NCBI GenBank assembly: GCA_014871385.1
Contig: CM026429.1
Coordinates: forward strand, 2,144,554-2,208,553
From: Ceratodon purpureus
Taxonomy: Eukaryota; Streptophyta; Bryopsida; Pseudoditrichales; Ditrichaceae
Direction: 5' to 3'
DNA length: 64,000 nt
The notes under the pieces were generated by a model. The model made no database searches, had not been told where the DNA came from, and saw only the letters and a program-made list of their open reading frames with translations. The position numbers and the translations under genes are program-made. Of this stretch, positions 1 to 53,791 are shown piece after piece; the stretch's first letter is position 1, and every line of letters starts with the position of its first letter.

Positions 1-904
1 GGTCAGGATAAGAAGCATCTGGAGTGGAAGGAATACCCGAGGTCCCGGAATCCGGACCCCAACAATGATCATCTGTTTCTACGTCGGATTCCCCTTGATT
101 AGACACATCGTCGTCACTGCTGATATTCATTGGAGACCTAGTCCCCAGATCCTGCTCAGACGGAGCGGAGTTGCTTTCATCAATTTCTTCATCTTCGTTC
201 CCCAAGTGAGGCTCCGTCGGCGGGCAGCCGACGGGACATGTGCCAGCCAACGCGCCGTTCACAAGTGGACAGACCTTGTATCCACTCCAAAGTACCAATC
301 GCCCCACAGCACACCCGATCGTTAACACATCCGGTAACTCGCAGAAAGCAGGTGTTTCAGAGAATTCTGGATTGACGGACGACACTCTCACTATTAGAAA
401 GAAGCTGTGAGGAATCAAGAACCCCTCCCACGTTCCTTTAGGAGAGCACTCCATAATGACTCCAGCGGCAACACAACGCTTTGAGCCTCCGGATTCCTCG
501 AGGAGCGCAACTTCCATCTGCTCTGCGAGGTCCAGGAATTCTTGAACGGGCTTGACATCGTCTTCAACATCCGTCGGCGGGCAGCCGACGGCCTTGATGT
601 CATCGTCTTCCACCTCTCCGAAAGGCCTGAGGTCGGCCGCCTCCCACAATATCATTTGTCCTAAGCAGTTGCTCAAGGACTTCGCACCCTCATCCGGAAA
701 TGGTATATTCATTTCCATGCTGTCTGAAACCTCAATCACTTTTACCACCACCACTATAAGATCAAATTCTACAACACGTTGGATCACTGCCCTGCCTGCA
801 TAATAGAGCCCAGAATGAGTAAGGGCCACGACAACGCCCTTTTTAACCTTCCACCGCCCTGATCGGCCATTCCTTAGAAACGTCTGGATCGGCTCTACTT
901 CCAT
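1..904 (-). CDS. Long open reading frame leaving the window, unknown acidic protein (partial, 3' end missing)
   Basis: Reading the minus strand from an ATG at 904, 301 codons run to base 1 without a stop; the frame is also open upstream as far as a stop near 1030. I do not recognise a family. The N-terminal third is basic and beta-rich (GRWKVKKGVVVALTHSGLYY), the middle is mixed, and the last 90 residues are Asp/Ser/Glu-rich and probably disordered. Two segments resemble each other, LSNCLGQMILWEAADL and LTIGCAVGRLVLWSG, which suggests an internal duplication; they faintly recall a G-x-x-V-x-W motif of plant transposon-associated proteins, which I cannot confirm. Two copies of the island palindrome lie in frame and encode VGCPPT. 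The gene diverges from the ParB-like gene with about 1 kb between the ATGs. The uninterrupted length strongly supports coding; function is unknown. Confidence 0.72.
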   Translation of the reverse strand, partial: MEVEPIQTFLRNGRSGRWKVKKGVVVALTHSGLYYAGRAVIQRVVEFDLIVVVVKVIEVSDSMEMNIPFPDEGAKSLSNCLGQMILWEAADLRPFGEVEDDDIKAVGCPPTDVEDDVKPVQEFLDLAEQMEVALLEESGGSKRCVAAGVIMECSPKGTWEGFLIPHSFFLIVRVSSVNPEFSETPAFCELPDVLTIGCAVGRLVLWSGYKVCPLVNGALAGTCPVGCPPTEPHLGNEDEEIDESNSAPSEQDLGTRSPMNISSDDDVSNQGESDVETDDHCWGPDSGTSGIPSTPDASYPD

Positions 905-1913
905 TGGATAAGAGATGAAGACCTCGTCGGCGGACAGCCGACAGGGTCGACGGGAAGTGTCCCCGCCGACGGAGTAAAATGTATCCGCCGACAACGAAGA
1001 CGACTCGGCGGGCAGCCGACGCGGATCCTACGACTCGGAGTGTGCACAGAAATAGCATCCGCCGACGATGACGGACACGTCCGCCGACAGAAATTGCAGG
1101 GGACCTGAGTCGAGAAGCAGTATGATGTCCCTAACCTGTCCAATCAGAGACTCCTCTCAACCGTCCAATTAGAAACGATAGACGAAGAGAACAGAAACGG
1201 CAACAGAAGGTGCGGGACAGTTAAGCACATGCGGGAATAATAACGGTCCTCTCAGGAAACGTGTGCGTCAGGAGCACTCTCAGAGGGAATCGAAAGTGCA
1301 ATGACAAAAATAGAATGAAGTATGCGCATCTGACGGGGGGTTAGTTATGAATTCCCAGGAGTACAAATTGGCGCCAGAATCGAATTCAATTTTGCGCGCC
1401 TTGGACAGATCAAGATCCCATCATGGCGGCGAGATGCCCCCGCCGTCACAGAACAATGTTGGTTCATTATTACGAATTTGAACGTGGCGATTGGAGCAGC
1501 TGTCATATCACATGCCCAGGCCATCATGACTGGGTGACGGATTGAAAAAAAGTCAAAAGACGTCCCATCATCATCCTACGTGGCGTGATGGGACGGATGT
1601 TAGGGATGACCATCCATGCATGGATGGTATGTACATAGCCATACGTCATGACCCATCGGGCGTGACGATTCAGTCTCGGGAGGTGGGGGTCTGCAGGGTA
1701 TACACCCGCCACTCCCGACATTTCCTCCTCATTTCCAGCCTTCTCTTTTTCAGCTCTCTTTTGTCCTCTTCTCAGCGCTCCGCAGAGGTCGCGTCGGCTG
1801 CTAGGTTTTTCTGCGTCGGCTGCTAGGGTTGAGGGCGTCGGCTCCTTCACCTGCGCGCGTCGGCTGCTGTTCGTGGATCATCCGCCGACGGTGAAAGGCC
1901 ATCCGCCGACGAC
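905..1913. promoter_or_regulatory. Divergent intergenic region with clustered half-palindromes
   Basis: This kilobase separates two genes transcribed outward, so it should hold both promoters. No clear TATA box is visible. It carries full palindromes at 926-942 and 1003-1020, then many isolated half-sites: CCGCCGAC near 964, 994, 1059 and 1081, four direct CGTCGGCT halves between 1790 and 1870, and two opposed CCGCCGAC halves at 1881-1912 just before the ATG at 1914. Short open frames here look accidental. Confidence 0.45.
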
Positions 1914-4900
1914 ATGGCAGCCTCCGAGAGTGGGTAAGTTCTCCAGTCGGCTGTCCGCCGACGCTCCCCTTCTTGAGTCCTTCAAGTTTTCAATTTCTCG
2001 CCTGGGTTTGTTCCTCCCGTCGGCTGTCCGCCGACGCCGTGACCCCTTCTTTTGCCCTTCATGTTTTGTGTTCTGGCGCATGGGGTTGTTCCTCCGTCGG
2101 CTGACCGCCGACGCCACCCCTTTCTGAGTCCTTCATTTTTCTATTTTCTCACATGGGTTATTCCCCCCGTCGGCTGTCCGCCGATGGGGAGGGCGTGTCC
2201 ATCCGCCCCGTCGGCTGTCCGCCGATGGAGTGAAAATCTGATGGTCTAATCTTGTGATTCTAATTTTGCAGGGCGAAGGTCGACTCCACCGCAAAACCGA
2301 ATGGGTTACGGTGGCTCTGTGACAAGGTTGTTGATCCTAAAGTAGAAATACTCGCACGGGGCTTGAAACCGAGGGTGACATTCCTCGCTGATTCGAAGAT
2401 AACGGAGTGGGGCATCACCTGGCGTGACACTCCCATGTCGCTGGGCTTCGTGACCAAAATAGGTCAGAAGCAAATGGCAGGTGGACCAAGATTTGAGATT
2501 ATTGGTTCCAGGGAATGCGACGATGACGACAACGTGTTCTTGGTGTTTGCATCGGTTCCTGTCGCGGAGGGCACACCAGTGGACTGCTTCGCGGTTGTAA
2601 TTCCGGTTGAGAAGTGCATGGACGACTTGTGCTCTAAAGAAGTACAGGATGCGGCTACTTGGGGCAGGGGTGAGAACATAGCTGTTGAACAGATACTGGA
2701 CGTGATTGATACGCTCGGGGACAAAGTGATGGTAGAGAGGACGAAGAACTTGGTTAAGCTTGCAGCAAAGAAAAGAGGCGGCCGCAAGTCTGCTGTAGAA
2801 GCGGGCACTGGTACAGTCACCCTCGAGACCGGAGAGACACAGACGACAGGGGAGTCATCGAGAAGGAAGAAGGGAAAGGCAGCGGCTGCTGAGGGCGAGG
2901 GTGGGAAGAAGAAAGGTGGGAAGAAGGAAGAGAAGAAGCAGACCGTGGCGGAAGCTCTCATGCTCGCAAACAATCTCACTTCCAAAACAAAGGACACCGA
3001 CGTCCTTGCCATGTACCAGACGTTGGAGGAGGGACTTGGGCACTGCTTCCCCAACGGGCAACGTGCCCTTCCTTGTCAGATTCCATATAACAGGATACAC
3101 ATAGCTCCCGACGAATTCAAGTACAGAGCGATATTCAGGAAGAGGCAGGATCAGATAAGTCTTTTCTACAAAGGACTTGGAGCAATCCGGAAGAAGCCCG
3201 AGCTGTACTGCCTTCCTATGAGTGGTGACCCCAGAGTAAAGGATCCAGTGACGGGCGAGATTATTAAGCTTAAAGGCTTGGAAGGACTTCTTCGACCTTG
3301 GATGGCCCTAAATATCAAGTATTCACTTACACTGGATGACGGCACAACTAAGCTATTACCTTGGTATGAAGATGAGGGCATCCACTGGTACATAATTGGG
3401 GGCCAGCACACGTTTGAGGCTTGTCGAGAACTGGGAGAGAAGGAACCACTGGACTCTCCTATGCGGCAGTATTACCTTAACCACGATATCATTCCTGTAT
3501 ATTCTGATGACAAGGATACCCTCATAAAGGTCTCTAACGCATTAAACATCGAGGTGAAGGATAAAGTCGCCGAAGTAAGTTTCAGGTCCCAGCTGGCGAA
3601 GATGCGCGCTAAATGGATCGAGCGGGGGAGGATCGACAAGAAAGATGACTACAGCGCATGGAAGGTAATTCACATCTTCCTCTTTTCCTGTTGTTTCCAA
3701 GTAGTTGAAAGTCGTCGGCGGACAGCCGACGCTCAAGTGGTTCTCCGTATTGCCGAAGTGGGATTTATTTATCAATGTCATTTTTTTCTTCCTTGCAGGA
3801 GTTCTGCAAGGAGTACCTCAGTCCGATTCTCGGAAAGTCCCCTACGTCCCAAACCTTCAAGTTGCCCTTAGTCTTCGTGTCTGACGAAACATACAACGAG
3901 TGGCAACTGGTGTTCGACGCCTGGGAGGAGGGGAGGATCATCGGGGAGGACGGTCTGAAACCAGGATTTCCCCCAAAGCTAGCCCGCCGGGACATAACAT
4001 TCAACGACATGCAGTACGTGATCGGTCTTCGGGACCACGAATGCAAGAGGCTGGCCAAGGAAATTCTGGACCTTAAAGTGTACGTCAAGGTCACTGGGAA
4101 AGAGGTGGTTCAACGGGATGGAACATCAGTGGAGAATTGGTGTAAGCGTGTGAAATTCGAGTATATTGTCCGGAACGAGCTCATGTGTATTTACAGGGGC
4201 TTTGCACTTAGGAAGCCAGGGACTGGGAAGAATATTGAGTGGACCATGGATGACTGGAATTCCCTTGAAGTCGAGAAGGGGTTCAATGATACAATGGTTA
4301 GTAATATTCAGGCTGACTTGGAAGATAGTCCTGAGGGGAAGGAGTGGCTTAAGGGACGGAATCATCCGCTCACGCCGTTGCAAGGGCCAACTCCAGAATT
4401 CTTCAAAGACATTGTGCAAAAATACTGGAAGTCGGATGTGGACCAGTCTTCGCAGTCGTCTGTACAGTTCGATGTTCGGATTGCACAGGACCTGGGTGAA
4501 GTGTGCACAGCTCTTGACGTTCGCGGAGCATTCTCCTTCAACAAGGCGCAGTATGAGATGTTCGTGGTCTTTGGCTACGATCCAGCGGGAAAGGAGATGC
4601 CTAACATGCGACAACAACACGTTATAACTGTCGCTGAGAGGATTCACCGTGAGGTGGAGGAGGAGGTCATTCTGGATGGGGAGGTAGATACAATTAAGGT
4701 GAATAAGCTTGTCACTCCATCCTTGTGGCTACTCGATGCTGAGTGTAATCACACTCTTCAAGGCGTGTCAAGGCTGACGAGTAATTCGTGGACGGTTCAT
4801 ACTATGCACTACTTCCCTGATAGTTCCGCCGGGTTTCAAAGGAGTTCTCTCATTGACTCTAGACCCAAGGTTCATGTGTCCGTTATGTATCCAAGAACAA

Positions 4901-6449
4901 CGCCGGGGGATGCATGGAATACCTTCTCGGACTTCACTGGTTTGAAACGTCCGCTTCCTCCCTATGTGGACGAAGGAGAAGATCATCTTGGGGAGGATTG
5001 GTCAAATGGTCACTGCCACGCTAGTTTCTCTTTCCTCCAATCTCTTCTGGAGAAAGCGATGCAGATTGAGGACGTTCGGGTGATCAATTGCTGGGGAGGG
5101 GGGAACGTCACGGCCCTCGCTCTGGTAAGTTACTGCAGTCTCTTCTGGTGCCTTCGCTGTTTGCTCACCAATCGTCGGCTGGCAGCCGACGCTGATTGAA
5201 TCCTTCGTGTTTCTTGGGCAAAAGATGTCCTTAACCGTTTCGTCTTGTTCTGCTGCAGAAAAACCATTTGACTGTAATTGAGATCGTGCGTACCGAGGAA
5301 GAGAGATACGAAGCGCACTGTCGGGTTCGGAATATGACGTTCATTCCTGGCGTTTATAACGTGCCCGTCCAAGCTCCAGTTCAGACCACGCAGTCTGGGG
5401 CCGGGCCGTCTGTCCCCGCCTCTGCTAGAGGCAGGACTGGCTCTCTCACGGCTGCCGACTTGGGTGTGAATGCGGAGGAGGCCCATTTGGTCGGGAAGGG
5501 TGGATGTATGGGTTCGGGGAAGACTGCGGGGGTTCGCTCACAGAGTTATCTGGACTCCGACGACGATGTCGACGAGGAGCCACCAGATGTACCCGACCCA
5601 GACGTTGAAGATGAAGCTGGAGATGGTGAGGAACAGCCAAGAAACGAGGACGACCAAGCTGAGGCTTTCATTCCAACTGGAGATGCAGATGTAGAGGAGC
5701 GAGACACGGAGGAATTAGACTATGAACCAGAACCCGACGAATTACCACTGGAAGAATCGAATCCTCGTTACGTGAACCCACCGCTGTCGCAAGTTCTACG
5801 GGAGACCGGAACTGACTCCCTCAGCTTCGGTATTATTTCTCCTACATTTCAAGAGCAGGGGACTCCTCCCGCCGAGCCAGAACGTGATTTAGACCAGGCG
5901 GGGCGTCCAAAGAAGATGCAGGTTCCTCTAGCATCGAGGCCTGACGATGAAGTGGTTCGCCGTGTCCAGAAGCCAACCCAGGAGCCTGCAGTGAGCATTG
6001 AAGGGCATGTTCCTCCTGCTGCCGTCGGCGGGCAGCCGACGGCAGACGAGCAAACCTCATCTAACCCCTCTGCCAAGACCAAGTTGACAGGGAAGTCAAT
6101 CGCATTCGTCACTCAAGGTGTGAAGGGCGCAACTCGGATGATTGGCCCGGATGAGAACCCTCTGGTGAGGACACGATCAATGAAGAGAAGTAAGACCGAT
6201 GGTACTGCGCAGGATTCCTCTCTTGTGGGTAACTTATCCCGTGATTCCTCAGGGGTTCAGGAAGGGGAGGAGTCCTCTGGGAAGGGCAAACGGAAGGCTG
6301 CTTCGAAGAAGACTTCCTCCAAGAAGGGCACATCTGGGGAAGAGCACATGAGTCCCAAAAATGTGGACGCTCCACAGGACGTTCTGTCACCTGTGCGGGC
6401 ATCCAAACGGGAGCCTAGGCCGAAGAAGCACAAAGGTGGAGGTCAGTGA
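1914..6449 (+). CDS. ParB-like nuclease / degenerate DNA methyltransferase-like fusion protein
   Basis: Four exons with matching phases: 1914-1933, 2272-3664, 3799-5124 and 5259-6449, all GT-AG, giving 1309 residues. Residues 377-395 contain WYIIGGQHTFEACRELG, the ParB/Srx-type nuclease signature, followed by about 70 residues typical of the fold. Residues 900-932 read VINCWGGGNVTALAL then VIEIVRTEEERYEAHCRV; this matches the position and spacing of the SAM-binding motif of N4/N6 DNA methyltransferases (consensus DPFxGSGT then GIE), but the Asp and Gly-Ser-Gly residues are altered. No clean DPPY/SPPY motif is seen; MYPRTTPGDAW may be its remnant. ParB-methylase fusions are known from phages and bacteria. 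A Lys/Glu-rich linker lies near residues 165-210, and residues 950-1309 are acidic, Ser/Pro-rich and disordered with basic NLS-like ends. One palindrome is translated in frame (AVGGQPTADE). Introns 1-3 each carry palindromes. Catalytic activity is doubtful. Confidence 0.82.
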
Positions 6450-6550
6450 ATCAGGCGGTGGCCCAGTCCATCTTTTAAATGCCTGCATTGATAATTTAGT
6501 GTAGTGATCGGGCTCTAGGATTGTGTTAGATGTTTGTACTGCCAAATATG

Positions 6551-6556
6551 AATAAA
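6551..6556 (+). promoter_or_regulatory. Poly(A) signal AATAAA after the ParB-like gene
   Basis: A canonical AATAAA lies about 100 bases after the stop at 6449, in a T-rich context. It supports 3' end formation here, although an in-phase splice could bypass it (6441 to 6682). Confidence 0.5.
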
Positions 6557-6681
6557 TTTTCGGTAAATGCCAAGTTGTACGCTTTCCCTTTTTTCAAATA
6601 ATGTTGCTTGCAAGTCGGCTGTCCGCCGACCGTCATCCTAACCGTCACGTTTGTCCTCTGCTTCGTTTTCTGTCACTCCAG

Positions 6682-7451
6682 AGTCCGCGGACAAGGAAGT
6701 CCATGGAAAACTTCACGAAGATAGACCCAGTGCAGTTCTGGAGCAGGGACCTCCACCTCTGAATCCACTTCACATAGCCCCGGAACAGGCTGGTACTCAG
6801 GTACACGATCCAGTGCTGAAGTACTTTCTTGTTCTGGATATTAACGGCCTGCTATTAGTCCAGACGAAGCAGGGTACTAGGTGGAATACTAAACTTAGAC
6901 CGGGTTTAGAGAGGTTCCTAGAGTTCTGCCTGGACAATTTCGAGGTGGTCTTCTGGAGCTGTGTTCAGGAAAAGAGGTTTCAGATTCTGTGGAAAGCGTT
7001 GCAGCAGCGCTGTCCTCGTCTAGATGCCGAAGTGCGCTACAAGTTCGACCAGAGTTTCTGCGAGACTTGCGTACATAAGGCTAGTAGGGAGTTTTATTTG
7101 AAGAGACTCCAGACCCTCTTTGACCTCGATGACGGGCTGAAGGGGACGGGGGCGTCTTCAATTAACACTCTCTTGGTTGATGATTCCCCTTATAAGAATG
7201 TCGCAAACACTCCTTGGAACGCTGTGCACCCTACACCATATACCTTCGAGTCGAAGGAGTCGGAAAGTAAGAGGAATTATCTGCTTGGAGAATTGATTCC
7301 TTGGTTTACCAGTTTGAAAGAATCCAAACTCCCCGTGCCCGAGTACTGCCAGAAACATTCCGAATTCGGTCAGCGTCGTCTGTTTCCGGGGGATGAAGCT
7401 TATAGTCTCTTCTCTCCACACATTGATTGCCCTAAACGAAAGAGAACATAG
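6682..7451 (+). CDS. HAD/FCP1-like phosphatase-domain cassette 1
   Basis: Open frame of about 256 residues beginning at acceptor CACTCCAG/AG; no ATG lies near its beginning, so an upstream exon must supply the start. It contains FLVLDINGLLLV (motif I), RPGLERFLEFCLDNFEVVFWS, and NTLLVDDSPYKNV (motif III/IV), ending in the basic tail PKRKRT. This is the plant HAD group whose motif I reads LDLNGLL, related to FCP1/TIM50 phosphatases, in which Asn replaces the second Asp. The nearest upstream in-phase donor is GGAG/GTCAGT after 6441 inside the last ParB-gene exon: joining 6441 to 6682 restores GAG and would fuse the two proteins. Otherwise a separate first exon lies in 6450-6650. An AATAAA follows at 7540. 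Confidence 0.75.
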
Positions 7452-7539
7452 TAGATGTAGAAACTGTTTTAGAGAGCATGCACATGATTCAGTCGGCTGA
7501 CAGCCGATGGGATCTTCATGTATTTAGACTTTTACAGTA

Positions 7540-7545
7540 AATAAA
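7540..7545 (+). promoter_or_regulatory. Poly(A) signal AATAAA after HAD cassette 1
   Basis: AATAAAG sits about 90 bases after the stop of cassette 1, downstream of a palindrome copy at 7492-7508. Confidence 0.5.
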
Positions 7546-7708
7546 GTTTTCCTCCTTTTAAATATATGAGAACGGAACTCAGTGTCGAGACTGTGTATTC
7601 TGTCGTGGGTGTCTTATTGTGTCTCCATTTGTACACTAGAGCAAGTATGAATTGTGAGCATGCGATTGATCACCGGAATTTTCTTGGAATTTGTCCTTCA
7701 TTTTTCAG

Positions 7709-8806
7709 GAGTCACTGGAGGATGACGCTGAAATTAAAGTGCACCAGGGACCTTCCCTTCTTAGTATGCTCTTGGAGGAGTACCCAACATCTCCTGATGG
7801 TGATGCTCTCAGAGAAGAGTCGCCGGGAGCGGAAGCCGAGAATGAAAGTGATGGGGAGGACGAGTACGACTATCCAGTCGGCGGGCCGCCGACGCTGTCT
7901 GCTGCACATAGCTCTGGCCGGTGTGCGATGGCTTCCACCTCGTTCGTCGAGACCAACGTCGCGATCCCGCGCACCGGTTCCCCGCGCGATGATTCCGTCA
8001 GTGTCAGCACTGATATTATTGCGCGTAATATTGAGGTACCTCTCCAACGACACTACCTTGTCCTTGACATTAAGGGATTGCTCATCGCGGAGCACCACGG
8101 GTATATCGGTGATGACCTGAAGACAAAAATTCATATCCGGGCTAGACCAGGACTTCTTTCATTTCTAGAGTTCTGCACGGCGAATTTCGAGGTAGTCTTT
8201 TGGTCCACGGTTTCTGAAAAGAATCTCGATCGTCACTTCCAGAAGCTGTTAGCCATTCATCCTTTGCTCAGGAGCAATTACAGACGCCTTCCAGGATTCT
8301 GGTGTGATATCTCAACAAGGACTAATCCGCATGGGAAACGGGAGTACTTGTTGAAGCGTCTGGATAGACTTTTCTGCGACACTAGGCTACTGGCTCGATC
8401 AGGTGCCACTGTCCAGAATACCCTACTGGTAGACGACCGCCCTTATAGGAATGTACTTAATCATCCATTTAGCGCTGTCCATCCTAATTCTTTTTTCTGG
8501 GACTCTGCAGAGTGCAAAGAACCTCAACCCACCCCCAATCCCTATTTAACTAGGGTAGTTACACCATTCCTTGCAGGACTTAAGCAGTCTGGATTGGATG
8601 TCCAGGAGTATTGTAGGAGGAATTCTAGCGTGGGGAAGCCACGTCTTTTTCCAGAATCTCGCGAATACCAGAAGTATAGGGAGGTTATTCCTTCTCATGC
8701 ATGCGGGTTTGACGTCCCGGGTGATCCTGGATCTTGGTTTGTGAATTTACCTTGTCCTCCGGAGGCCCCTGGTTGTTCCATCGTCGGCGGGCAGCCGACT
8801 GATTAG
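7709..8806 (+). CDS. HAD/FCP1-like phosphatase-domain cassette 2
   Basis: Frame of 365 residues from acceptor TTTTTCAG/GAG to TAG. The first ATG inside the frame falls shortly after the acceptor (LLSMLLEEY), so the true start may be there or in an upstream exon. An acidic N-terminal 90 residues precede the HAD fold: YLVLDIKGLLIA (motif I, Lys in place of the second Asp), ARPGLLSFLEFC, FEVVFWST, and NTLLVDDRPYRNVLNHP. The layout matches cassette 1 (C-terminal EYCRRNSS..GKPRLFP against EYCQKHSE..GQRRLFP), so the two are tandem duplicates that have diverged strongly. Two palindromes are translated in frame: VGGPPT near residue 60, and VGGQPT as the last residues before Asp-stop, so the repeat forms the C-terminus. 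Confidence 0.75.
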   Translation, partial: ESLEDDAEIKVHQGPSLLSMLLEEYPTSPDGDALREESPGAEAENESDGEDEYDYPVGGPPTLSAAHSSGRCAMASTSFVETNVAIPRTGSPRDDSVSVSTDIIARNIEVPLQRHYLVLDIKGLLIAEHHGYIGDDLKTKIHIRARPGLLSFLEFCTANFEVVFWSTVSEKNLDRHFQKLLAIHPLLRSNYRRLPGFWCDISTRTNPHGKREYLLKRLDRLFCDTRLLARSGATVQNTLLVDDRPYRNVLNHPFSAVHPNSFFWDSAECKEPQPTPNPYLTRVVTPFLAGLKQSGLDVQEYCRRNSSVGKPRLFPESREYQKYREVIPSHACGFDVPGDPGSWFVNLPCPPEAPGCSIVGGQPTD

Positions 8807-9096
8807 AGCCTACATCATCGGCGCCACTAGTTTTAAAAATCACATATGATACTCTGCACTCTTTAGTTTAATACGCTAAGACTGTTCCCTTTCTGAACTT
8901 CCCTGCACCACACAATTGTTTCCAGTGCTGCAATTCGGTACTTCTTTTTGTAGATGCATGCATGACATTTCACTTGCTGCACATTTACCTTTGAGGTTTC
9001 TTCAATGCATCGACGACTTTGAATGTAGTCCATTTCTTTCATATACTTCGTCCTGTTCCTTGATTTCCTTCACTGATTGCATTTCATATTCTTCAG

Positions 9097-9774
9097 GGTT
9101 CCTCGTTTTATTTCAAATGCCTTCACGGTACACCTCATCATGTCAAGAAATGTATTGTCCTATGCGTCAATGGCCTTCTCTGCTATGTGGATCCCAGGAT
9201 AGAGGCTTTGCCATGGGATACGCATCGGAATGTAGTGAAGCGCCCAGGTTTGAAGAAGCTTTTCGACATGCTTTTCTTGCATTTCCATGTTGGTCTGTGG
9301 TCGAAGATGCCCTTGGGAGAACTGAAGCCTTTACTCACACATATTCTGCCGGCCGGTGTAATGGAGAGGTTGTCCTTCGTGTATAGCAGAAGTGACCTTA
9401 TCGACCGGGAGAATTTCCCCTGGAGTTATAAGACGTTAGGTCAAGTTTGCTCCAAGGTACAGTCTAGAAACGTCTGCAAACTAGATCAGGTGCTATTTGT
9501 GGATGTTGACCCGAGGTCATTGAGGAGGACACCAAACTGTATGTGCTACATTCCTTGGCCTTTTCAGGGTCATCTAAACTTTCCGAACGATGACGGCGTT
9601 ATACCTAACATTGCTACAGATATCCTTCCTCTGGTTTATCCCTTGCACAAGTTCGGATCTGTACCGGAGTATATGGCGCAGGCGTGTAGGCCGGGGCAAG
9701 TGCACTGGGCAATTGAAGCTGCGAGAAAGTTTGGACGTGCACGAGTGGACTGGACTGAAGTTTGCTGGGACTGA
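9097..9774 (+). CDS. HAD-like cassette 3, degenerate
   Basis: Frame open from acceptor CTTCAG/GGT at 9097 to TGA at 9774, 225 residues. CIVLCVNGLLCY aligns with motif I of cassettes 1 and 2, with Cys in place of the nucleophilic Asp; RPGLKKLFDMLFLHFHVGLWS and DQVLFVDVDPRSL correspond to the next motifs. The segment equivalent to the cap between them is shortened, and the C-terminus (FGSVPEYMAQACRPG) matches the family ending. It is the most diverged of the three and predicted to be catalytically dead. No first exon or promoter is evident between 8807 and 9096. A competing frame over 8916-9386 is a shadow. Confidence 0.6.
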   Translation, partial: GSSFYFKCLHGTPHHVKKCIVLCVNGLLCYVDPRIEALPWDTHRNVVKRPGLKKLFDMLFLHFHVGLWSKMPLGELKPLLTHILPAGVMERLSFVYSRSDLIDRENFPWSYKTLGQVCSKVQSRNVCKLDQVLFVDVDPRSLRRTPNCMCYIPWPFQGHLNFPNDDGVIPNIATDILPLVYPLHKFGSVPEYMAQACRPGQVHWAIEAARKFGRARVDWTEVCWD

Positions 9775-11384
9775 GTTAGGCGGACTTTTTCGCCTCCAAT
9801 TTGCACTTCTTCCCTCCTCCTGACCAACAGAACACCTTCCATCGGCTGCCCGCCGACTTGGTCGACCCGTTTGTGCGGCCTTCAAATATATGATTTACTC
9901 ATTGACCTTACGGCTATGCTTTCAGGGAAATAGTTTTCAGAGTAGGTTATAATGTGATAGGATTTACGTGAACTTGGTACATAGTGCTGGGTGTAGACTT
10001 AATGTTGTAGGACTTCAGGACTCAAAGTGCTACGGGACTAGTTAGTTTAGCGTGTTCTATTATCGGCGGGTCGCCGACTCTGTATTGTACATTTCATTAC
10101 TTGAATCAACATGATATTCTTTAAAGTATTCATTGTAACTCTTATTCTGCATTATATGTCGCAATCTTCGGGTTCATATATCCATCACTGGCAAATTCCG
10201 CCCATGCACATCTCGATGTCTAGTTTTGCATTCCATATTCTGTGGTATTCATGTACAATGACACTGTTCATCTGTGGTCTCCATCCATCGGCGGTCCGCT
10301 GAGTTCGCATTGGTCATTTTTGAATTCTGGACTTTTTTTTGTCCAGAATTACCTAAATATCCCTTAGTAGAAAAGAGTCTAGTTTGGTAATTTTGGCCAA
10401 TAGGCAACAAAGATCTTTAGGGTTAAGTGCTCCTCCTAATTTGGCAGTGTCAAATCACTCCATATTCCACTCTTGCTCAAACAAGTCTTCAAACCAATAA
10501 AAGAACTCATGAATTGACAAATAGCTCTGGCAAAAATCAATTCTCTAGCAAAAAACAACTCTTATAGCACAAAGCCTTTATTTGATTTGTCCATTCAGTA
10601 ATACTGACTTTTGATTATTTTTTATTCATTATCATCAAAGTGTCTACTCTTGAAAGGAAGGAGTTGTTCTATATTACTAACTTATGGCTTTGGACTTGGC
10701 TTAGTGGTAGAACAAATATATACTTTATGCTTGTTAATCTCCTTTGGTGACTAGAGTTTATTTTTTCCTTACTAGATTAGAAACATTGTAAGAAAATAAG
10801 AAATACAACAAATAATTTAAATACAAATACATTCGCTTTTTCAAAAAATATCACATATATAATAAGTATATATTTTCATTGATTCGTAGTTTGTACATCA
10901 CTATGCAATTTGAAATTTGTATATGACATGCAAGGGTATGTGATATGCTGCTTTAGTCTTATATACAATTTGCAATTTGTGTGTATGCAATTTCCACATA
11001 TACATGATTTTGCAATTTGCATTTCTTGCCGTATGGTTTGTATATATGTGTATATGTGATTGACGCTATGCATGTATGTATATGTATGGAATTGATATTG
11101 TATATGCGTATATATAATTGATGGTATATGTGTAAGTAAATAATTAGCGATGTACGTATACATATGTATAATTGACAATATATAATTCATGTTATACTAC
11201 TTTATATAACAATTCATACAATATATACAATAATGTAATTAAATTTATATAGGTTCAAAACATCAATATTTGAATTTGTTTCAAACTAAGAGTTGTACTC
11301 TCATTTGGTATAAGTGTAAATACAAAGGCTTTGAAACTATACAAATGGTTGATGTCACAATATTAAACATTGTCTATTGATGAG
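9775..11384. other. End of the palindrome island and AT-rich spacer
   Basis: The last palindromes are at 9841, 10062 and about 10287; after that the composition drops sharply to AT-rich sequence. Bases 10870-11190 are alternating TATGTATA/TGTGTATA low complexity. I see no gene from 9775 to 11384. Confidence 0.6.
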
Positions 11385-11578
11385 AGGACTAAGACGATGA
11401 AGATGACTAAAATGATCAATAATATATGACTTAGATACTTAAAATGATTGAGATGCTTGAGTTGAGAGTACGACGACTTTGATGACCGAGATGCTTGAAA
11501 TTTTTAAGATGACTAAGATGACTAAGATGCTTGAGATGATTAAGATGACTAAGATGCTTGAAACCACTAATATTAGCG
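11385..11578 (+). repeat. Degenerate minisatellite, block 1 (GATGACTAAGATGCTTGA)
   Basis: Imperfect tandem arrangement of two short modules, GATGACTAA and GATGCTTGA, in mixed order, best preserved at 11500-11570. The same modules recur at 14060-14365. Confidence 0.7.
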
Positions 11579-42519: not shown

Positions 42520-44397
42520 ATGGTGGCGCGGATGTTGGGCTTCCGGAAGCCACCCGCACCGACGTTGCCGCCCACATCTGCGTCGTCCTTCTTCCGGTCG
42601 CCTGTTGTGTCCGCGCCCGTGAAGTCGATTTCCTCGTCGTTGAGCTGGTTCACTCCACCAACTAGAAGACGCAAGGCGCCGGCCATGGAGTCGAAGCCCG
42701 CGCAGCCCACGTTGCCGCCCTCGCTGCCGGCCTCCTTCATCCGGCCGCCGCTGCGGTCGCCCCCGCAGGCTGTCCTGACGAGAACCGAGGCCGATGAGGT
42801 GGTGACCATGACGGCGTTTCTGGGCACTGAGGGGTCGAATGTGGACGTGGATTTGGTGGTGCTCATGACGCACATCCAGGCCGCTTGCAAGCACATTGCG
42901 TCGGTGTTATCCTCCCCTGCTGAGCTTCAGGCCACCATCTCGGGCGCTGACGCTGCGCACGGCGTGGGCAGGGATGCGCCCAAGCCCCTGGACATCGTTT
43001 CGGTGGGTTGTTGCAATCCCCTCTCTATTTCTTCCAATTTCGAATTGTTATTCTTCTTCTTCTTGAGACTCTAGTGTGATGATATCTAGGTAGTTCTCAG
43101 GAAATCTAACCTAGAAGTGCATGTGTTACGCTACGGTGACCTCTTGCATTGCAGCAGAACGTCGAATTTCTGTAGTTATATGTCACGATTTTGCAGAGTG
43201 GAGGTTTAAGGGTAGTTCGCTGTTGTAGCTTACCCAATTCCCTGCTATTCCCCATTCCACGACATGCTTTCTGCTTCGATCGTTCAAGTTTAGGTCGATA
43301 TGTTCGTTTGGATCGAATCGGGGTCTCCCCTGGTGCAGCTGCATCACAACCACTTCTTCCAATCTTGAATCTACCTGTGGGCTCTCTCAATTGTCGGAAT
43401 TGTCAATTGTCGGGATTTTGTGTGGAAGCAAAGTAGGCATGCCAAACAGAGATATGACACCAATTGCGACAAGCGCACACATCTGACGTTGCGCACACAC
43501 TGCTGGCAGGCAGAATAACATCATTAAGGCGGCTCTGCGAAGCTCAGGAAAAGTGGCAGCAATGGCGTCGGAAGAGGACGACAGGCCCGTCTGGTTTGGG
43601 GAAGGCCCATACGTCGTCGTCTTCGACCCCCTGGACGGCTCTCGCAACATCGACGCATCCATTCCCACGGGCACAATTTTCGGCATCTACCGCCGCATAC
43701 CCGAAGCCGACCACTTGCCGATTGAGGAGAAAGCATTCGCCAATGTCATGCAGAGAGGCGAGCGTCTCGTCGCTGCCGGATATGCACTCTACTCCTCCGC
43801 CACCATCATGGCCATCTCTGTAGGCTCAGGCTTGCATGGATTCACCCTGGATTACAACATCGGCGAATTCGTCTACAGCCACCACGACATCCGAATCCCC
43901 GAACGAGGTACCCACACACCCTAATTCCTCCTTTCCCCTCCTCCTCTCAAACCTTCCCCTCATGGTACTCACCTTCTCCAATCCATGTGTATGCAGGTCA
44001 GATATACTCCGTCAACGACGCTCGCTACTTCGACTGGCCATCTGGTCTCCGAAAATACATCGACACAGTCCGACAAGGCAAGGGCCAGACACGGAAACAG
44101 TACTCAGCTCGCTACATCTGCTCACTGGTGGCCGACCTGCACCGCACCATCATGTATGGGGGCATTGCAATGAACCCAAGGTCTCATCTCCGGCTTCTGT
44201 ACGAGGCTAACCCTCTGAGCTACCTGGTGGAGCAGGGAGGCGGCAAGGGCACCGATGGCAAGCGACGGATCCTGGAGATCAGTCCCATCGAGATTCACCA
44301 GCGACTGCCGCTGTTTCTCGGCAGCGCTGCCGATATTGCTGAGCTCGTGAGCTATGGCGACATCCAGCAACAGAAGAATCCTGGCTACACTGTTTGA
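42520..44397 (+). CDS. Fructose-1,6-bisphosphatase, chloroplast type II (no redox loop)
   Basis: Exons 42520-43002, 43514-43907 and 43997-44397 join in phase to 425 residues. The enzyme removes the 1-phosphate of fructose-1,6-bisphosphate. Seen: GRDAPKPLDIVS, the metal-binding VVVFDPLDGSRNIDASIPTG, YSSATIMAISVGSG, ARYFDWPSGLRKYIDT, YGGIAMNPRSHLRLLYEANP and the ending NPGYTV. There is no Cys-bearing insertion after MASEEDDRPVW, so the light-regulated loop of the classic chloroplast enzyme is absent, as in cpFBPase II. The chosen ATG has A at -3 and G at +4 and opens a Ser/Pro/Arg-rich, acid-poor stretch like a transit peptide. The frame is open upstream to an ATG at 42352, which would add a hydrophobic 56-residue leader; I consider that less likely. 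Confidence 0.92.
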
Positions 44398-44956: not shown

Positions 44957-45028
44957 GGCCCCGTAGTCCAGTGGTTACGACTTTGGACTTTGAATCCAAA
45001 AACCCGAGTTCGAATCTCGGCGGGGCCT
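44957..45028 (+). tRNA. tRNA-Gln (anticodon TTG)
   Basis: 72-base cloverleaf without intron: acceptor GGCCCCG paired with CGGGGCC, D-arm AGTGGTTA, anticodon arm TTGGA-CTTTGAA-TCCAA with TTG, and T-arm CCGAG-TTCGAAT-CTCGG containing the B box. CCA is not encoded, as expected for a nuclear gene. A TTTTC run follows within 40 bases. Confidence 0.96.
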
Positions 45029-47406: not shown

Positions 47407-48585
47407 CTATCCTACAATTGAAGCTATTTTAATGGAATTACAAGCTTGTTTATAACTTGAAATGTAATTAGGATAAACTTCGTAAGTTATATCTTGTCTG
47501 TTCTTTGCTACACCATTCGACAAATTTCTACATATTTGACATGGTTTTTGAATAGGTTGAAGATGAGCTATGATGTTTTCATTTACTTCAAATGGGAATT
47601 CTTTTAAATTCACAATACTTGTATGCTTGACCAAATTTGGAAGTTGATTAAACTGTATAGGATTCGTGATGCTTATAAAAAAAGGATGTTGCAAAGCTTG
47701 TGAAGCGGTCAAACGTTTATTTGGATCCCAAGTACAAAGTCCTTGTATCAAATTCAAAGCTTCTGGACTTGCATATGGAATGCATGGAGCAAGAGAAGTC
47801 AATGGAGGAAATTGAGGGAATTGAAAACATGAAGATGTTGCCAATCTCATGCCTTCAGGCCAATTGTAATGATTCGGTGCACCAAATACTTCACAAATTT
47901 TATAAAGTTGATCTTGCTCGCTGGTGCCCGGAAATAGCGGCACGGACCGAAATAATTCCGCCATAATTGTTCCCACAGACCACATGTCTATGGCTGATGT
48001 ATAAGTTGGTGAATGCACCAACAACTCAGGTGCTCTATACCAACGAGTACACACATACTCGGTGAATTTTCCACATGGACAATCTTTTTTTTTATATTGC
48101 AAATGTGCCCATGTTTGAGTAAGACTGTTATGTAAGGACATCTTTTTTGCCATGCCAAAATCAGCTAGCTTCAATGTATTTCCGTTGATCAAAATGTTCT
48201 CTGGCTTCATATCACGATGAATGTAACCTTTGTTGTGCATATATTCAGTTGCTTTAAGGATTTGATACATCCAATATTTAATTTTTGCTTCACATGGAGG
48301 TTGTATTTGTTTCCTGATAGCTTGTAATAAATTGTCTTCCATATATTCAAATACGTATGACAAAGTATTGTCATTTTTGATAATACCCTTCAACTCCACA
48401 ATGTTTGGATGACCTTTCAATGAATTCAAAGCCTCAAATTCAACCAATTTCACTACATTTGTGGGGAGCTTATATTTTAATTGTTTTATTGCAACAATTT
48501 CTTTTGTAGAATGATGAATGGCTTTCCACACGTATCCAAATACACCTTCGCCTAGTTGGCTTAATACTGTATATTGATTATCCAT
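47407..48585 (-). CDS. CMGC protein kinase of the MAK/ICK/MHK group, intronless
   Basis: A single 392-codon frame. Seen: GEGVFGYVWKA (P-loop), VAIKQLKYK (catalytic Lys), YIHRDMKPENILI (catalytic loop), LADFGMA, activation motif TEY followed by VCTRWYRAPELL, and DMWSVGTIMAELF. The order and the TEY...RWYRAPE block identify the RCK/MAK subfamily, whose animal and algal members control cilium length; plant homologues are poorly characterised. The gene is AT-rich and lacks introns, which suggests a retrocopy or strong intron loss, yet every catalytic residue is present. About 20 extra residues with CPC sit between DFG and TEY, unusual for the family. The C-terminal tail is short (about 90 residues) compared with MAK kinases. 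Confidence 0.87.
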   Translation of the reverse strand: MDNQYTVLSQLGEGVFGYVWKAIHHSTKEIVAIKQLKYKLPTNVVKLVEFEALNSLKGHPNIVELKGIIKNDNTLSYVFEYMEDNLLQAIRKQIQPPCEAKIKYWMYQILKATEYMHNKGYIHRDMKPENILINGNTLKLADFGMAKKMSLHNSLTQTWAHLQYKKKDCPCGKFTEYVCTRWYRAPELLVHSPTYTSAIDMWSVGTIMAELFRSVPLFPGTSEQDQLYKICEVFGAPNHYNWPEGMRLATSSCFQFPQFPPLTSLAPCIPYASPEALNLIQGLCTWDPNKRLTASQALQHPFFISITNPIQFNQLPNLVKHTSIVNLKEFPFEVNENIIAHLQPIQKPCQICRNLSNGVAKNRQDITYEVYPNYISSYKQACNSIKIASIVG

Positions 48586-53456: not shown

Positions 53457-53649
53457 AAGCATCAACCAAAGATCACCTAGGTATAACCCAAGTATCACAC
53501 GAACACCACCTAGACATCAAACTTATCCATCCTGCTCCTCAGTCCACACATCCACACACACAACTCCTGTTCCCAATTCAGGCCCAACTGAAGCAACACT
53601 CAATGAAATGATCATGAATTTGCATCAAATTTATCACCTTTCCGGTGTC

Positions 53650-53748
53650 TAGACTAGTTTGGTTTGTCTAGATTGGTTTGGTTTGTCTAGATTGGTTTGG
53701 TTTGTCTAGATTGGTTTGGTTTGTCTAGATTGGTTTGGTTTGTCTAGA
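53650..53748 (+). repeat. 20-bp tandem repeat (TTGGTTTGTCTAGATTGGTT)
   Basis: Five nearly identical units end 44 bases before the SDR gene ATG, so they lie in its 5' UTR or core promoter. Confidence 0.9.
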
Positions 53749-53791
53749 TCTTGTTGAGCTGGGAGCTGGATTGTTGGCGAAGATTGTTGAG

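Follow-up and report, generated by a model that had tools for sequence, protein, structure and literature searches.

The window, a stretch of 64,000 nucleotides of Ceratodon purpureus DNA, carries in its first 10.3 kb (the island) a family of short palindromes, which we read with middling confidence as operators of a dimeric DNA-binding protein that is most likely encoded by the island itself and coats it in a VANC-like manner. According to the pattern GTCGGC-N5-GCCGAC, 12 exact copies and 6 with one mismatch are present in the window, all within 216-10078, and a decayed copy lies at 10287, which bears out the sequence-only reading of about 18 copies in 10.3 kb. The same reading saw no full copy in the following ~54 kb, and with the 5-base spacer none with up to two mismatches was found beyond 10.3 kb: matches with at most two mismatches number 18 in the island and 0 in the remaining 53.7 kb, and those with at most three number 25 in the island and 5 elsewhere in the window. 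In the shuffled window, copies with at most one mismatch averaged 0.03, with a maximum of 1 in 100 shuffles, compared with the 18 observed. For the island alone, a first-order Markov model predicts 4.4e-4 exact palindromes, and local GC content therefore does not explain them. Moreover, exact arms occur only with the 5-base spacer among the spacers of 0-12 that were scanned. Since the island runs past the left end of the window, the confinement to ~10 kb is established on the right side only.

Among the matches listed, the GTCGGC dyad is also the most frequent exact 6-Nk-6 inverted dyad in the island (12 copies; k 0-20), followed by its own shifted registers and by unrelated dyads that occur once each. 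In the rest of the window, the commonest such dyad among the matches listed is TCTAGA with 5 copies, which probably make up a tandem array at 53646-53749. A search of viral_contigs with the palindrome pattern returned 8 contigs, each matched at a single place, which we attribute to chance, and no description of the motif was found among the open-licence literature matches listed. The working set comprises 19 copies, namely the 18 with at most one mismatch and the decayed copy at 10287, which has the KGNCM centre. Six three-mismatch matches of the island (1425, 1873, 1894, 5568, 6031 and 7015) were excluded as they are without this centre, and two of them (1873 and 1894) overlap single half-sites, which are tallied separately. 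The KGNCM centre is likewise absent from all 5 three-mismatch matches outside the island.

The genes and ORFs of the island are as follows, and all introns in the model of the plus-strand gene are GT-AG.

2-904, minus strand: gene with an ORF open at the window edge and a presumed ATG at 904, without family
1914-6449, plus strand: gene with exons 1914-1933, 2272-3664, 3799-5124 and 5259-6449, in frame, 1309 aa
6681-7451, plus strand: NIF/HAD-like ORF 1, motif DING
7709-8806, plus strand: NIF/HAD-like ORF 2, motif DIKG
9097-9774, plus strand: NIF/HAD-like ORF 3, motif CVNG

The palindromes are distributed over them in the following way.

216-232: exact arms, in the minus-strand ORF (VGCPPT)
573-589: exact arms, in the minus-strand ORF (VGCPPT)
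926-942: exact arms, presumed minus-strand leader
1004-1020: one mismatch, inside the left leader cluster
1946-1962: exact arms, intron 1
2019-2035: exact arms, intron 1
2096-2112: exact arms, intron 1
2169-2185: one mismatch, intron 1
2210-2226: one mismatch, intron 1
3714-3730: exact arms, intron 2, offset 49 in 134 bp
5174-5190: exact arms, intron 3, offset 49 in 134 bp
6024-6040: exact arms, exon 4 (VGGQPT)
6614-6630: exact arms, downstream of the 1309-aa ORF and ahead of NIF ORF 1, in a 3' region or an intron
7492-7508: one mismatch, gap separating NIF ORFs
7877-7893: exact arms, NIF ORF 2 (VGGPPT)
8783-8799: exact arms, final codons of NIF ORF 2 (VGGQPT)
9841-9857: one mismatch
10062-10078: one mismatch
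10287-10303: decayed, three mismatches, KGNCM centre retained

The spacer of the palindrome is itself constrained to K-G-N-C-M, position 8 being G in 19/19 copies and position 10 being C in 18/19, so that the refined site is GTCGGCKG-N-CMGCCGAC, consisting of two inverted 8-bp half-sites with one free central base. Ten of the 17 positions are invariant among the 19 copies. Positions 7 and 11 are occupied by G/A in 7 copies, T/C in 7, G/C in 3 and T/A in 2, which means that 14/19 sites join one G-type and one T-type half. Altogether, 21 departures from the 19-bp consensus were counted, 20 of which affect the outermost two bases of either end. All 21 are at CpG positions, 9 of them being C>T or G>A, and the inner CpGs of the 19 copies are retained in 37/38 cases compared with 21/38 for the outer ones. 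Outside the copies, the CpG observed/expected ratio of introns 1-3 is 0.50-0.66. That of the island noncoding DNA is 0.50-0.87 versus 0.70 in genic DNA elsewhere in the window; not being higher, it gives no sign of special hypomethylation, which counts somewhat against a VANC-like reading.

In addition to the palindromes, the island carries 12 single GTCGGC/GCCGAC sequences compared with 3.6 expected (sd 1.9; the largest of 300 shuffles had 10). Ten of these are located at 965-1088 and 1793-1910, which are the presumed 5' leaders of the two divergent genes.

963-970, 985-992, 1059-1066 and 1081-1088, minus strand: four half-sites GTCGGCKG in the presumed minus-strand leader, two pairs 22 bp apart
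1793-1910, presumed leader of the plus-strand gene: six half-sites, forward at 1793, 1815, 1837 and 1859, reverse at 1884 and 1905

The half-sites of the plus-strand leader extend to GTCGGCKG in 5/6 cases. Outside the palindromes this 8-mer occurs 9 times, always in the presumed leaders, and the KG extension is thus found in 9/10 leader half-sites versus 0/8 of the remaining single GTCGGC of the window. Gaps between leader half-sites of the same direction are 21-22 bp in 6/7 cases, which was matched by 0/20,000 random placements, with leader intervals picked post hoc after inspection of the data and with right-hand half-sites that partly stem from a 22-bp tandem array (1791-1843).

As to placement, 14/19 copies are noncoding, although 7380 of 10320 bp are coding (p 0.0024 when the intron-1 array counts as one). 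All five coding copies are in one codon phase and encode V-G-x-x-P-T. The sequence-only reading described the flanks as unrelated, and this stands for most pairs, since, compared with random island DNA, 7/644 non-tandem flank pairs reached p < 0.01 against 6.4 expected, but it fails for the following array and possibly for introns 2 and 3.

1941-2184, plus strand: ~73-bp tandem array in intron 1, carrying the palindromes at 1946, 2019, 2096 and 2169

Introns 2 (3665-3798) and 3 (5125-5258) are both 134 bp long with the site at offset 49, and 48/112 of their bases agree outside the site. On one side of the site their alignment beats 99% of shuffles (p 0.008), with p 0.062 on the other, and according to this similarity they may be old duplicates. 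By another measure, the downstream flanks of the copies are marginally above random (0.262-0.270 versus 0.250). When the sites were tested for even spacing, P was 0.03 and 0.055, but the test was post hoc and is given no weight. Directly past the last site, at a drop in GC content, there is an inverted repeat, AATTCTGGAC-T8-GTCCAGAATT (10323-10350), which is a possible end of an element.

The extended half-site dyad, the two-turn spacing of half-sites, the graded conservation and the lack of covariation between arms together point to a dimeric DNA-binding protein, and on sequence grounds putative operator sites fit better than a mobile unit or an RNA hairpin. We propose that a sequence-specific DNA-binding protein would bind GTCGGCKG-N-CMGCCGAC as a dimer, and that it might occupy neighbouring single half-sites in the leaders, spaced by about two turns of the helix. 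The binder would most likely be the 1309-aa protein or the product of the minus-strand gene, and by coating the island it could act on its own chromatin or transcription, as VANC does on VANDAL transposons. Protein binding, selection on the sites, an island-encoded binder, chromatin opening and an island that is, or once was, a mobile element are what we infer from these patterns.

According to previous studies, the VANC21 motif of Arabidopsis VANDAL transposons is YAGTATTAY, and VANC binds motif arrays in the noncoding parts of its own transposon and strips methylation element-wide; the motifs are mostly noncoding and form tandem arrays within introns and near gene starts (PMC5735166, PMC10398659). 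VANC motifs and island sites have in common a short motif distributed across one stretch, mostly noncoding, with arrays in introns and upstream regions. The noncoding share of the island sites (14/19) and the array at 1941-2184 agree with this. Within the window, 19 sites lie in the island and, allowing up to two mismatches, 0 outside it. Unlike VANC motifs, however, the island site is a 17-bp dyad, occurs in both orientations and has five coding copies. No Pfam family of a VANC protein or MULE transposase was found in the ORFs searched, which come from the part of the island that the window covers. If an island-encoded reader is true, it would represent a second, independent design of self-recognition in a plant element, with a strict dyad operator and half-sites in both leaders versus the short, one-sided VANC motif, and it would provide a direct test of motif families arising at many unrelated places within a few kilobases.

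Several other explanations were weighed against these data. GCCGAC is the DRE/CRT core of plants (AP2/ERF-DREB class), and each arm of the palindrome equals such a core, which, together with the clustering of sites in both leaders, would suit a host transcription factor, e.g., of the AP2/ERF-DREB class, and an island that is stress-regulated and not self-marking. We regard this as unlikely: the sites extend over 10 kb, including introns, exons and 3' regions, and differ from DRE/CRT elements as an inverted pair of fixed spacing that runs through gene bodies, while the other genic single GTCGGC of the window do not have the KG extension (0/8). To our knowledge, DREB proteins do not habitually bind a fixed dyad centred on a single base. 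Bacterial REP sequences, which are extragenic and genome-wide, resemble the island family in being short, palindromic and multicopy, with flanks that are unrelated, and a REP-like mini mobile unit had been suggested before. A self-inserting unit of 17-19 bp would account for near-identical copies in unrelated surroundings; however, the outer bases decay in a graded way while the core is retained, single half-sites exist at a spacing of 21-22 bp, the coding copies share one codon phase, and the slight downstream flank similarity likewise speaks against it. The island also differs from REP in its single half-sites and coding copies, and a RAYT-like transposase was not found, and we now think a mobile unit very improbable.

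The earlier suggestion of a selected protein or RNA binding site is kept in its protein-DNA form, to which dyad, half-sites and graded conservation conform, while the RNA form is unsupported because the arms show no covariation. Transcript hairpins that are bound by an RNA-binding protein or direct processing would be conceivable in that all copies may be in transcribed DNA and the left leader folds better than 200/200 shuffles (z -4.0). Nevertheless, we give them only a very slight chance, as compensatory changes are absent (both-sided changes in 0/6 stem pairs), the pair 7/11 is unpaired in 14/19 copies and the right leader folds no better than its shuffles (z 0.07). No Rfam match was present in 1-11500. 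Functionless spread by duplication, gene conversion or template switching in a fast-evolving gene cluster clearly describes the array at 1941-2184, which is duplicated, and may describe introns 2 and 3 with their equal length and offset. For the family as a whole we consider it improbable, since the remaining flanks are without similarity, core bases persist while edges decay, and half-sites are regularly spaced. As well, a by-product of a local nuclease would predict neither half-sites nor retained inner CpGs.

No Pfam, NCBIfam or PHROG family was found for the 1309-aa protein, and no DNA-binding domain was recognised in the island proteins with the same three collections. A segment of the 1309-aa protein around GGQHTFEA can be aligned to a plasmid ParB/Srx protein (database E 5). 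Against a ParB-like profile of 18 sequences, which was built from the query's own best matches, it scored 22.2 versus at most 14.1 for 22 controls (the reversed sequence, 20 shuffles and exon 3), with an hhalign probability of 5%, and a ParB Pfam match is absent even at E 10. These comparisons weakly suggest that the protein may hold a ParB-like domain. Of the ParB-like and HAD genes hinted at earlier, the HAD/NIF domains are present three times, while ParB is left with the faint profile match. According to a study of plasmid RK2, the KorB operators (OB) are palindromic, act both near and far from promoters and are bound by a ParB-family protein (PMC11790492). However, the KorB system belongs to a bacterial plasmid with another operator sequence, and the ParB-likeness of the 1309-aa protein is weak. 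A eukaryotic nuclear element with a ParB-like protein and parS-like operators, in which the protein loads at scattered dyads, spreads and marks the element, is in our view a long shot.

The catalytic D-x-D reads DIN, DIK and CVN in NIF/HAD-like ORFs 1-3, respectively, and with this altered first catalytic motif the three tandem ORFs may be pseudo-phosphatases. In a PDB sequence search, two middle segments obtained chance-level matches only and the NIF ORF none, and two structure models had mean pLDDT values of 34 and 33, too low for use. Protein scans of viral_contigs found no relatives of the island proteins, nor any with the plasmid ParB protein as query. The segment CWGGGNVTALAL, which we had taken to resemble methyltransferase motif I, found no support, and the methyltransferase-like reading was dropped. 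A transposase and a terminal repeat were not found, nor was a second island copy in the window (self-comparison, E 1e-3), and a transposon nature of the island is therefore uncertain.

Elsewhere in the window, fructose-1,6-bisphosphatase exons were identified at 43553-43924 and 43987-44397 (plus strand), with 5iz1, of moss origin, as the best PDB relative. Together with the spliced genes, this gives the window a plant-like look. An intronless protein kinase ORF of 392 aa is present at 47407-48585 (minus strand) and is perhaps a retrogene. Finally, ARAGORN predicted a tRNA-Gln (ttg) at 44957-45028 (plus strand).
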